Part shown: in pieces, positions 61,050-64,000 of the stretch
Layout of the letters: the number at the start of each line of letters is the position of its first letter
Position numbering within the stretch: position 1 is the first letter of the stretch
From: an uncultured Chryseobacterium sp.
Lineage (GTDB): Bacteria; Bacteroidota; Bacteroidia; Flavobacteriales; Weeksellaceae
DNA: 64,000 bases
Assembly: GCA_913778505.1 (NCBI GenBank)
Contig: CAJYWD010000036.1
Span: forward strand, 1 to 64,000
Direction: 5' to 3'
Notes under the pieces: model-generated
The model's database searches: none
Seen by the model: the letters and a program-made list of their open reading frames with translations, nothing else
Told to the model about the DNA's origin: nothing
Program-made: the position numbers and the translations under genes

Positions 61050-61622
61050 TCAAAGCTTATCCAATTCTCTTCTCAGTGTAATCGACGCTTTTTTAACCTC
61101 TTGTGTCCAATCGTCAGCGGCATTACCGTCTGCGCCGTCTGAAATATATTTAAGACAGAGAAAATCGATTTTCTCATATTCCGCCACTTTCGCCAGCGCA
61201 AAAGCTTCCATATCGATGACATTATATTCAGGATTGATATGCTCCATTTCGAATTGGTCTCCGGAACCGCATATCCCATTGGGGAGATTTTCTATAATTA
61301 ATCCATATTCCAGCAGAATTGATTCATTGGAAAGTGGTGTTTCAAATTTCTGAAAACCCAAAGCTCTGACATCCATATCTCTCTGAATAAAACGGCTGCA
61401 ATTCACAACGCTTCCTCTGTCAAACGTTGTGCTTCCGGCAGTTCCCAGATTGATAATTAAATCGGGATTGAACTTCTGAATGGCCTTTGTAAGATTATAA
61501 GTCGCTTTAACTTTTCCTATGCCTACAAAGACTTTATTATGATTTTCAAATTCATTTGCTGCTTCGGATTCCAAAGCAAAAACCAGTAGAATTTTGTTGT
61601 AATTCTTTCCGTTAATATTCAT
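61050..61622 (-). CDS. MTA/SAH-type nucleosidase
   Basis: A 190-residue purine nucleosidase (PNP_UDP fold). It shows LLVFALESEAANEF, LIINLGTAGSTT, IDMEAFALAKVAE with the ribose-binding Met-Glu pair, and the catalytic Asp region LKYISDGADGNA. It should cleave the glycosidic bond of 5'-methylthioadenosine, S-adenosylhomocysteine or 5'-deoxyadenosine. 5'-deoxyadenosine is the by-product of radical SAM enzymes, and the gene lies 10 nt after a radical SAM gene in the same direction. It is shorter than typical Pfs (about 230). Confidence 0.85.
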   Translation of the reverse strand: MNINGKNYNKILLVFALESEAANEFENHNKVFVGIGKVKATYNLTKAIQKFNPDLIINLGTAGSTTFDRGSVVNCSRFIQRDMDVRALGFQKFETPLSNESILLEYGLIIENLPNGICGSGDQFEMEHINPEYNVIDMEAFALAKVAEYEKIDFLCLKYISDGADGNAADDWTQEVKKASITLRRELDKL

Positions 61623-61632
61623 TATCAGTTAT

Positions 61633-63036
61633 TTAAAACAAAACCTTGTCATCTTTTCTTAATTCCTCCAGATATTGGCTTTTATCGTCACGATAAAAAA
61701 GATTCATCGTCTCAAAAGGAATCATTTTTAAATCTTTGTTGACGATGTGAACGCAGGATTTTTTGACCGCACGGACATCAAAATCGTGGGCATCCATAAA
61801 ATTCATAATGATGATTCTGAACAGATTATCATAATCCAAATCAGGTGCAGAAACCTCTGGAAGACAACATAATAACTGATTGACTTTAGGTTTCACCTTA
61901 TCCACAGAAATGCCGGTGCTGAAGATGTCCAAAAGCTGCATCTGCAATCCAGTATCCTGTTCGTAAACGATGGTATTCCGGGTTTCGTTATTGAGTAAAT
62001 CGGCAGGATTGATATATCTTGTCAAAGGAATGGTTTCGCCTTCCAATTTTAGAATGTAGCCCATTGCCAGAGCATCCGGATTACACGGAACCGGAATGAT
62101 ATCATCCGAATTCAGAAGCGGAAATTGATTCAGAATCTCTTGTCTTACTTCTGTTAAAGTTATCTTTTCGTGCGCCGAATCTTCCCGGTTTCTTCCGGCA
62201 ATTTCGACTGGTTGGAAGGTGATGCCACGCACACATTGTTGTTTCAGAGCAAACTCGATGATTTTGCCAATTTCATCAATATTTTTATCTTTTTGAAGAA
62301 CGATGACAAGCGTTGTGGAAAGATTCAGAGCATTGAGTTTTTCCAAAGCCTTCATTCTTATATCAGTCAAATCCTTTCCCCGAAAATCTTCCAGAACTTC
62401 AGGTTTAAAGGAATCAAACTGGAGATAAATTTCAAATTCAGGCGCATAAGTAGCGAGCTTTTCAGCAAAACCGGGGTCATTGGCGATTCTTATACCGTTG
62501 GTATTGAGCATCAGATGCTTGATGGGCTTTGACTTCGCAATGTCCATTATTTTGAAAAACTCGGGATGAACGGTCGGCTCTCCACCACTGATCTGAACCA
62601 CATCCGGCTCGCCTTCATTTTTGACAATGACATCAAACATGGCTTCAATTTCTTCCAGACTTCTGTGACTTCCGTAATGGGGCGACGACATGGCGTAGCA
62701 CGTTGGGCAAGTCAGATTGCAACGGTCTGTCACCTCAACAATAGAAAGACAGCTGTGTTGCTCGTGATCCACGCACAATCCGCAATCGTAAGGACAGCCA
62801 TATTCTACATCTGTTCCGAAATGAACAGGCATTTCGGATGCTTTGTTGTAGTTTCTGATGTTCTTATAATAATGAACGTCGGATGCGATTTTGGTTTTGA
62901 AAAATCCGTGGTCAGGACATCTCTTGGTCATAAAAACCGACTCATCCTCAATGATGATTTTCGCACCAACTCTCTTGAGACATTCCGGACAGAGGCTGAT
63001 AGTGTAATCGTAATAGGTATAATTTCTTACAGGCAT
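61633..63036 (-). CDS. Radical SAM protein of the MJ0619/Tes-like architecture
   Basis: A 467-residue protein. An N-terminal zinc-ribbon-like part (SLCPECLKRVGA, KRCPDHGFFKTKI) leads to the Cys-rich block YGCPYDCGLCVDHEQHSCLS. The radical SAM motif EVTDRCNLTCPTCYAMSSP (CxxxCxxC) follows, and QISGGEPTVHPEFF is the SAM-binding GGE strand. The C-terminal part has a further LLCCLPEV pair. This order matches the family of archaeal MJ0619 and the tetraether lipid synthase Tes, which joins lipid tails. The bacterial role is unknown. Upstream lie a 2-TM protein and an Lgt-like membrane protein, so a lipid or lipoprotein substrate is a fair inference. Confidence 0.88.
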   Translation of the reverse strand: MPVRNYTYYDYTISLCPECLKRVGAKIIIEDESVFMTKRCPDHGFFKTKIASDVHYYKNIRNYNKASEMPVHFGTDVEYGCPYDCGLCVDHEQHSCLSIVEVTDRCNLTCPTCYAMSSPHYGSHRSLEEIEAMFDVIVKNEGEPDVVQISGGEPTVHPEFFKIMDIAKSKPIKHLMLNTNGIRIANDPGFAEKLATYAPEFEIYLQFDSFKPEVLEDFRGKDLTDIRMKALEKLNALNLSTTLVIVLQKDKNIDEIGKIIEFALKQQCVRGITFQPVEIAGRNREDSAHEKITLTEVRQEILNQFPLLNSDDIIPVPCNPDALAMGYILKLEGETIPLTRYINPADLLNNETRNTIVYEQDTGLQMQLLDIFSTGISVDKVKPKVNQLLCCLPEVSAPDLDYDNLFRIIIMNFMDAHDFDVRAVKKSCVHIVNKDLKMIPFETMNLFYRDDKSQYLEELRKDDKVLF

Positions 63037-63047
63037 AATTCAAATTT

Positions 63048-63281
63048 TTACATTCCGCCGCATATCACGCCACTTATCAATCCACAAATCAGTAGTGAAA
63101 TCAGCATCGTCTGCCAAAACTGGGATTTGGAAAACTTGCGTCCTTCTTTGGATTCGTAAATCAGCTTGATGAACACGGTAACAACCAGGGAAACGAAGAA
63201 GGCTACCACCAGAATAATTCCAATGATGAGGGCTACCAAACCGCCCAGGCCGCCTACTTCCAAAATGATCAGACTTTTCAT
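63048..63281 (-). CDS. Small two-TM protein
   Basis: A 77-residue protein with two hydrophobic helices (about 11-38 and 59-75) joined by a basic loop (YESKEGRKFSKSQF). I do not recognise a family. It overlaps the Lgt-like gene by 4 nt and ends 11 nt before the radical SAM gene, so it is co-translated with the former. The short loop could hold a membrane partner for the radical SAM enzyme. Confidence 0.72.
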   Translation of the reverse strand: MKSLIILEVGGLGGLVALIIGIILVVAFFVSLVVTVFIKLIYESKEGRKFSKSQFWQTMLISLLICGLISGVICGGM

Positions 63282-64000
63282 ATTTTACGGATTTTCAATG
63301 CTGTTGAATGCCATGATGTTCTTAACTTAAAGATATAATAAATTATCATAACCAGAGACACCAGCTGAATAGTTCCCAAATTTCCTAAAATTTCTACTTT
63401 GGGCTTAATGAAATCCAACATAAAGCGGAATGTGAAGTAACTCAACATAAATACCTGAAAGACAAAACCTGACGGATAATAGAATTTCGTTTGAATATAC
63501 CATAAAACAAATGTGAGGATAATCAGGAAAGCAATTTCATACAGTGCTACCGGATGTCTGAGATATTGGTCACCGAGACGCATTCCAAAAACCGAATCTG
63601 TCGGAATCCCATAAGTTTCTTCATAAATTCCGGTGAAAAAGCAACCAATCCGGCCAATAATCATTGCAAAAATTAAAGGATAAACCATCAGATCACCTGT
63701 GCTTTTATGATAACCTGCGATTTTTTTTGCCAGTTCCACGCCGATTAATCCAAATGACAATCCTCCGACAATGGTGTTGCTGGTCCAGAATCTTTTCAGA
63801 TCAAAGTGATGGAAGAACAGATCAGGGTTTTCCAGATTACCGATCAATTTAGAACCTATCAGTGCACCACCTGTTGCTCCAATCAGCACTGCAGCAGATT
63901 TTGCAAAATCCATGTTTTCCGGAGATTTTCTTTTAAGATAAAAATACAGCCGCATAGCCAGAAAAATCCCGAGCGTTTCAAATACGGGATGAGCAAGAAC
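63278..64000 (-). CDS. Lgt-like prolipoprotein diacylglyceryl transferase, partial (5' end outside window)
   Basis: At least 241 residues. The reading frame is open to the window edge (the last visible residues read VLAHPVFETLGIFLAM before RLYFYLKRK), so the N-terminus lies outside. The visible part has six or seven membrane helices, with Lgt-like motifs GRIGCFFTGIYEETYG and YLRHPVALYEIAF. Lgt transfers diacylglycerol from phosphatidylglycerol to prolipoproteins. The usual GRxGNFxNxE signature is changed (Cys replaces Asn), so it may be a divergent paralogue with another substrate. An ATG at 63955 is internal to the frame. Confidence 0.85.
   Translation of the reverse strand, partial: VLAHPVFETLGIFLAMRLYFYLKRKSPENMDFAKSAAVLIGATGGALIGSKLIGNLENPDLFFHHFDLKRFWTSNTIVGGLSFGLIGVELAKKIAGYHKSTGDLMVYPLIFAMIIGRIGCFFTGIYEETYGIPTDSVFGMRLGDQYLRHPVALYEIAFLIILTFVLWYIQTKFYYPSGFVFQVFMLSYFTFRFMLDFIKPKVEILGNLGTIQLVSLVMIIYYIFKLRTSWHSTALKIRKI

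Follow-up and report, generated by a model that had tools for sequence, protein, structure and literature searches.

In the 64,000-nucleotide stretch of uncultured Chryseobacterium sp. DNA analysed here (the window; contig C36 of the genome), three adjacent minus-strand genes encode an Lgt-like membrane protein, a small protein with two transmembrane (TM) segments and a radical S-adenosylmethionine enzyme (rSAM) of the Tes/TrsS family, and it is hardly to be doubted that they form a co-inherited cassette. The cassette is tentatively read as a device for an unusual lipid modification, in which the Lgt-like enzyme would lipidate the terminal cysteine of the small protein and the Tes-like enzyme would alter the lipid tails. 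The Lgt-like open reading frame (ORF; 63278..64000, minus strand) encodes 255 amino acids (aa) and is cut by the window, its complete form being C36:63278-64045 including the stop; the small gene (63048..63281, minus strand; 77 aa), third cassette member, encodes the candidate acceptor, and the rSAM gene (61633..63036, minus strand) encodes 467 aa. An earlier note, made from the letters of this DNA, described four tightly packed minus-strand genes, the fourth being a nucleosidase, and the ORFs confirm this packing with an overlap of 4 nt and gaps of 11 nt and 10 nt; that the small 2-TM protein is by sequence comparison a regular third member, with an invariant C-terminal cysteine, was missed there. 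In Pfam the window proteins reached 80.9 bits for LGT (cut-off 24.9), 94.4 for Radical_SAM, 71.3 for the HMPTM zinc ribbon and 60.1 for PNP_UDP_1, and the 77-aa protein had no match above cut-off.

A set of 120 genomes from the window's family contains 27 with the Lgt-like gene, and exactly these 27 also have the rSAM gene, the two being linked at a distance within 1.6 kb in 27/27; in the window's genus both are present in 3/13 genomes and neither in 10/13. Because the identical 27 family genomes carry both genes and the genus is split in this way, the pair is gained and lost as a unit. Judged by named relatives, the genus is probably Epilithonimonas, the family Weeksellaceae and the phylum Bacteroidota. 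In the phylum set of 247 genomes the rSAM query matched 22 genomes at E <=1e-30, 20 of them at E <1e-90, and the Lgt-like query matched 21 genomes at E <1e-25, including all 20 strong rSAM genomes; in 19/20 a single contig holds both genes, no more than about 1.2 kb apart, and in G034 they are on different contigs. The Lgt-like gene is found in 20/20 rSAM genomes vs 1/227 others (Fisher 1.6e-28), and a value of 1.9e-27 was also computed for the co-occurrence of the pair; both values ignore kinship, for which reason the repeated co-absence within one genus is the better argument. Concerning the two weaker rSAM genomes, the Lgt-like gene stands beside the rSAM gene in G096 and not in G066. Some genomes occur under two ids (e.g. 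L007/L202, L010/L203), and no count mixes both sets. Several loci depart from the usual spacing: in L207 (G397:C125) an oppositely oriented gene for a 397-aa protein lies between the enzyme genes, and in the distant cassettes L122, L123 and L198 (G121, G156, G370) about 1 kb separates them, holding in L123 an ICMT/PEMT-like membrane methyltransferase (Pfam ICMT 49.9 bits). An orphan Lgt-like gene of 30% identity is located at L195 (G017:C10).

A small TM ORF with a cysteine near its end adjoins the pair in 80/80 loci of the genome_contigs collection (76 found by BLAST, L011, L016 and L040 by eye, and L029 later); the copies in L032 and L075, earlier hidden by start-codon overlap, were found by BLAST. 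In the mycobacteria and in most loci of the window's family the gene stands between those for the two enzymes, and in most loci of family f2, which belongs to the same taxonomic order, it follows the rSAM gene. In the window the residue is Cys74 (codon 63060..63062, minus strand; tail ...GLISGVI-C-GGM), and a C-terminal cysteine is present in 38/38 proteins compiled by hand beside the cassette from 30 loci, as well as in the near-copies and later finds outside this set (L111, L163, L164, L166, L175, L180, the second L120 ORF and L207). These proteins have 2-4 predicted helices and a median pairwise identity of 0.18, the cysteine being the sole column common to all 38 and the next best being common to 26. 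In each of them it lies 3-14 residues from the C-terminus behind a 7-24-residue run without charged residues or His, and Gly is found at -2 in 26/38. Cysteine is rare elsewhere in the set (19/2913 residues), which gives a chance of about 0.09 for one in the last 15 residues.

A strict tail pattern, written after the tails had been seen and missing the window's own copy, matched 14/50 six-frame ORFs (45-160 aa, at least two TM; window and 15 loci), all of them cassette small proteins. Among 138 automatically collected ORFs 18 were without the tail cysteine; 15 of these overlie guaC on the opposite strand, and for the other three (two in short loci, one in L076) there was no larger ORF for comparison. 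No Cys-tail small protein was seen at the Lgt-less rSAM loci L124, L187 and L188 (by script) and L197 (by listing), nor at L119, a locus running into the contig edge, while L116, L194 and L195 have loose ORFs with a cysteine in the last 16 residues and without the loop-helix-Cys layout. A Pfam scan of eight small proteins gave nothing above cut-off. BLAST without composition statistics placed the 38 proteins in one group and default BLAST in 9 groups (23, 6, 2, 2 and five singles); common descent is settled by neither grouping. By hydropathy and charge alone the tail appears to have a layout like that of a lipoprotein signal, with a net-positive loop ahead of the hydrophobic run in 36/38 and the hydrophobic stretch with the cysteine in 38/38. 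The loop is predicted to be cytosolic, so that by the positive-inside rule the cysteine would face outward. Two small Cys-tail proteins per cassette are encoded in L118, L176, L178, L206 and L209. Many small proteins from family f2 and from the family of the window (e.g. that encoded at 63048-63281) have an N-terminal LEVG(N/G/D)LxGL motif, which may serve as a recognition signal.

The Lgt-like protein shows the Lgt fold by its Pfam LGT match and predicted structure, and the AlphaFold2 (AF2) model of the homologue from L010 has seven long helices. Its altered signature GRIGCFFTGIYEETYG (63608..63655, minus strand) retains R132 (R143 in E. coli numbering) and G146 (G154) and carries C135 in place of N146; in the alignment R143, Cys at the N146 position and G154 are each found in 32/32 Lgt-like rows. 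Arg207 (63425..63427, minus strand), the equivalent of R239, is Arg in 32/32 Lgt-like and 29/29 comparison rows. Since the "canonical" comparison rows include paralogues (12/29 with Cys at N146), only the Lgt-like side of the alignment table was relied on. The role of the signature residues (R143, N146, G154) was taken from excerpts of PMC4728403 and PMC13251419; the two arginines that are kept, R143 and R239, presumably activate phosphatidylglycerol. The altered Lgt motifs described in the earlier note were thus found again, with R143, R239 and G154 kept and H103, N146 and Y26 replaced. Against the equivalog TIGR00544 the protein scored 33.8 bits, below the lgt cut-off of 118.9, and 22/22 searched genomes with an Lgt-like gene hold another, better-scoring LGT match. 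The window's genome is among those with a canonical lgt elsewhere (C26:29954-30730), a check which the note had proposed; with this second Lgt and the co-inheritance of the pair, the link that it drew between the Lgt-like and rSAM genes holds. The canonical Lgt (L004:4502-5770, G000:C26) is a 423-aa protein with a long N-terminal extension starting like a signal peptide, and its LGT match begins well inside the protein. A back-up Lgt for ordinary lipoproteins, standing by chance beside an unrelated rSAM, would agree with the LGT match, the Lgt fold and the conserved R143 and R239; this explanation is nevertheless very improbable, as the two genes co-occur across genera and phyla, a better-scoring Lgt is present in the same genomes, and H103, N146 and Y26 are lost.

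The window's rSAM has the cysteine blocks CX2C-X20-CX2H, CX3CX2C plus His, and CX3CX2C. The first is a rubredoxin-type motif, C16-X2-C19-X20-C40-X2-H43 (62908..62991, minus strand), with its three cysteines in 27/27 rSAM rows and a spacing equal to that of Tes C9/C12/C33/H36; the second is the N-terminal auxiliary cluster motif, C81-X3-C85-X2-C88 with H91 (62764..62796, minus strand; 26/27 rows), which matches Tes C73/C77/C80; the third is the radical SAM motif, C106-X3-C110-X2-C113 (62698..62721, minus strand; 27/27 rows, C106 in 22/22 Lgt-linked rows). By alignment with the numbering of PMC9433317, Met411 (61804..61806, minus strand) corresponds to Met439, the labile cluster ligand of Tes, and Cys318 is present in 22/22 Lgt-linked rows. 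These blocks bear out the Tes-type order claimed before; the label "MJ0619/Tes group" is right in its likeness to Tes and wrong in treating MJ0619 as a separate second group, since MJ0619 is Tes (GDGT-MAS) itself, and excerpts of PMC9433317 report that the authors of the structure rejected the older pterin-methylase assignment after finding bound lipids. Homology to Tes (7tol) was detected by phmmer at E 4e-62 and by profile at E 2.5e-62 across residues 11-455. Among NCBIfam models matching over the full length, TrsS (321.3 bits, cut-off 490) and Tes (273.2 bits, cut-off 450) score best, both cut-offs being missed, and the TrsS cut-off was exceeded in 0/395 genomes of the phylum. An anti-phage role (pVip) was rejected, as PADLOC gave only weak matches of 47.5 and 39.4 bits over the generic rSAM core and NCBIfam viperin 40.7 bits against 180.

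Constraint on the rSAM sequence appears strong: the enzyme is 98% identical in Epilithonimonas hungarica, and compared with L012 it has 97% identity, dN 0.016 and dS 1.87, the Lgt-like protein and GuaC of the same pair being 73% and 88% identical; compared with L203 the values are 97% for rSAM and 99% for GuaC. Small genes next to an rSAM gene often encode its substrates, and a RiPP-like (ribosomally synthesized and post-translationally modified peptide) maturation was considered in this connection, in which the rSAM would crosslink a small-protein precursor and the Lgt-like protein would handle or export the product. The position of the small gene and the two small paralogues in the five loci named above fit such a scheme, while the SPASM peptide maturases score far below TrsS and Tes and the cysteine is predicted to lie across the membrane from a cytosolic enzyme; the scheme is accordingly held to be improbable.

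More distant versions were sought in a plasmid collection of 72,556 records, where the Lgt-like protein matched 5 records and the rSAM 10. Four records are common to both, namely those of Persicobacter psychrovividus, Mycobacterium avium, M. branderi and Nonomuraea gerenzanensis, and the enzyme genes are neighbours there; the Nonomuraea "plasmid" is probably the chromosome, being 11.9 Mb long. In both mycobacteria two small genes lie between the Lgt-like and rSAM genes; the linear plasmids of these species (L191, L192) carry the cassette, and their small proteins end CTGLNP... Inspection of four of the remaining six rSAM records (from M. vanbaalenii and from the haloarchaea Salinirubellus, Halorarius and Haloarcula) showed a methyltransferase gene next after the rSAM gene in each, and no Lgt was among the features listed at these loci. 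Viral contigs searched with the Lgt-like protein gave no relative. In a tree of 30 rSAMs one branch (support 90/79) splits 22 Lgt-linked rows and G272 from Tes, G066, G302, three haloarchaeal rows and M. vanbaalenii; in it L116 (from G034) is labelled Lgt-linked by genome only, and G272 has its Lgt-like gene on another contig. Because the program warned of long branches and odd composition, this separation is taken as a hint only.

The chemistry proposed for the cassette is throughout drawn from homology. The cysteine of the small protein would lie at the periplasmic face, the side on which Lgt is active, and would there receive a diacylglyceryl-type group from the Lgt-like transferase. The Tes-like enzyme, presumably cytosolic, would abstract a hydrogen from a lipid tail and couple or alter the tail before or after lipid transfer. 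Iso-branched tails, which are common in the host's group, would resemble the Tes substrate. The end product would carry a radical-modified lipid and be either a small membrane protein or, if cut before the cysteine, a lipopeptide of 4-15 residues. Transfer of a lipid group by the Lgt-like protein is probable and action of the rSAM on a lipid tail is rather plausible, while the terminal cysteine of the small protein is a reasonable candidate for the acceptor, though a less secure one. The confidence in the whole reading, tentative as it is, lies near that in its parts because the steps strongly depend on each other.

A lipid-only pathway is a weaker possibility, in which the Tes-like enzyme would couple or alter phospholipid tails (e.g. 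to membrane-spanning lipids of iso-diabolic-acid type), the Lgt-like protein would swap or remove the head group, and the small protein would be a mere scaffold. According to excerpts of PMC9433317 free lipids are substrates of Tes, which also binds phospholipids of bacteria, and bacterial Tes homologues are proposed, as yet without proof, to build membrane-spanning lipids from iso-branched tails (excerpts of PMC8941075, PMC11868695). Such a pathway leaves unexplained both the C-terminal cysteine as sole invariant residue of otherwise divergent small proteins and the fact that no such small protein was seen at the Lgt-less loci L124, L187, L188 and L197.

Several observations count against the lipidation of the small protein by the cassette. 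In the Lgt-like rows H103 is found in 0/32, N146 in 0/32 and Y26 in 3/32, being mostly His; since these three residues are essential in E. coli Lgt according to excerpts of PMC13251419, the activity or the acceptor of the Lgt-like protein may differ from that of E. coli Lgt. On the rSAM side the N-terminal cluster cysteines are present in 18/22 Lgt-linked rows (L125, M. avium and Nonomuraea are among the four without them), Met411 in 15/22, with Thr or Lys in the displayed distant rows, and Tyr459 of Tes, which the Lgt-less G066 keeps, is replaced by Ile431 in the window's enzyme and by Ile or Val in those Lgt-linked rows that were displayed; the cysteines around the C-terminal cluster differ from Tes as well. 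By these row-by-row differences the Lgt-linked rSAM group departs consistently from Tes, the more distant enzymes of the group retaining fewer Tes features. The AF2 model of the rSAM was poor (predicted local distance difference test score, pLDDT, 45.6, from 27 near-identical sequences) and was left unused. The tail of the small protein is not a canonical lipobox, the residue at -1 being mostly I, T, L, A or V and the cysteine C-terminal; the lipobox consensus is [LVI][ASTVI][GAS]C at the N-terminus. The small proteins were picked by hand from beside the cassette, and their topology comes from hydropathy and charge. Finally, the Lgt-like and rSAM genes stand on separate contigs in G034 and G272, G017 has an Lgt-like gene with no rSAM found genome-wide at the thresholds applied, and no Cys-tail small protein was recognised at the G034 and G017 loci.

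The fourth gene of the earlier note, the PNP-superfamily nucleosidase (methylthioadenosine/S-adenosylhomocysteine type, MTA/SAH; 61050..61622, minus strand; 190 aa), is a probable flank gene outside the conserved cassette, which may be co-transcribed with it in this genome. That note proposed a four-gene cluster in which the nucleosidase clears 5'-deoxyadenosine for the rSAM. Proximity speaks for this view, the gene being within 1 kb in 9/27 family cassette genomes, on either side, and present anywhere in 20/27 cassette genomes vs 27/93 others (p 3.8e-5, kinship ignored). It is nonetheless very unlikely, for the nucleosidase occurs in 47/120 family genomes, including 8/10 cassette-less genomes of the window's genus, stands beside the cassette in only 6/80 named relatives, and is nearby in 0/9 cassette genomes of genus g2. 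At five cassette-less loci it lies directly beside fabG in L204 and L205, and in L199, L200 and L201 there are intervening genes or fabG is beyond the stretch; in L202, L203 and L208 fabG and the nucleosidase flank the three cassette genes, and in L084 (Elizabethkingia) the nucleosidase lies between fabG and the cassette. By this locus comparison and genome survey the nucleosidase was rejected as cassette member, and a part for it as dedicated 5'-deoxyadenosine remover was not supported, while the other part of the cluster, namely the Lgt-like, rSAM and small-protein genes, proved conserved, and the gene-order check in the family upheld the enzyme pair in 27/27. The radical-based change of a lipid or lipoprotein suggested by the note remains the most natural reading. 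Upstream of the cassette contig C36 encodes a 123-aa protein without Pfam match and a 616-aa secreted-looking protein (L003:4124-6572), whose place is occupied by fabG in L202 and L203.

Sequences of bacterial Tes homologues have been on record since 2022; excerpts of PMC8941075, PMC11868695 and PMC9433317 describe the activity of these enzymes as unconfirmed. No description of the Lgt-like/rSAM pair was found in the open-access literature searched, subscription papers and preprints being outside its scope. What seems to be newly seen here is a set of divergent small proteins with one invariant column, a C-terminal cysteine behind a hydrophobic run. The cassette supplies one clade of bacterial Tes homologues with a regular partner, the Lgt-fold transferase, and a candidate acceptor, and the chemistry is therefore directly testable in easily grown aerobic bacteria. 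For divergent "second Lgt" proteins that carry both N146C and Y26H, or at least for some of them, a function would be suggested too; M. smegmatis MSMEG_5408 is reported to have this pair of changes (excerpts of PMC13251419). In its boldest and rather unlikely form, the cassette would represent a new route of protein lipidation, with a mirror-placed C-terminal lipobox, a dedicated Lgt relative and Tes-type joining or alteration of tails. The lipid anchor so formed would span the membrane or be macrocyclic, with release as a lipopeptide of 4-15 residues as a possibility, and the cassette would have spread between Bacteroidota and Actinomycetota.

Among known systems Tes (GDGT-MAS) shares with the window's rSAM the near-full-length homology, the rubredoxin motif, the N-terminal and radical SAM clusters and the labile Met, and differs from it in that the window's enzyme is partnered with an Lgt-like protein, has Ile in place of Tyr459 and a changed C-terminal Cys pattern, and falls below the Tes cut-off; archaeal ether lipids are not expected in the host. 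TrsS (NF045646) is the best NCBIfam model over nearly the whole rSAM length, with the score below its cut-off, and the related M. vanbaalenii and haloarchaeal loci pair with a methyltransferase; as no methyltransferase is found among the ORFs adjoining the window's rSAM, the reading as TrsS with a methyltransferase was dropped. Mss, the bacterial membrane-spanning lipid synthase, is likened here by its description as another tail-coupling enzyme of bacteria (excerpts of PMC11868695). Compared with Lgt, the Lgt-like protein has lost H103 and carries N146C and mostly Y26H, and M. smegmatis MSMEG_5408, with presumed low Lgt activity, likewise has Y26H and N146C (excerpts of PMC13251419). For the small protein hydropathy and charge predict the order of n-region, h-region and cysteine known from the lipoprotein signal, and it would differ from that signal in having this layout at the C-terminus.

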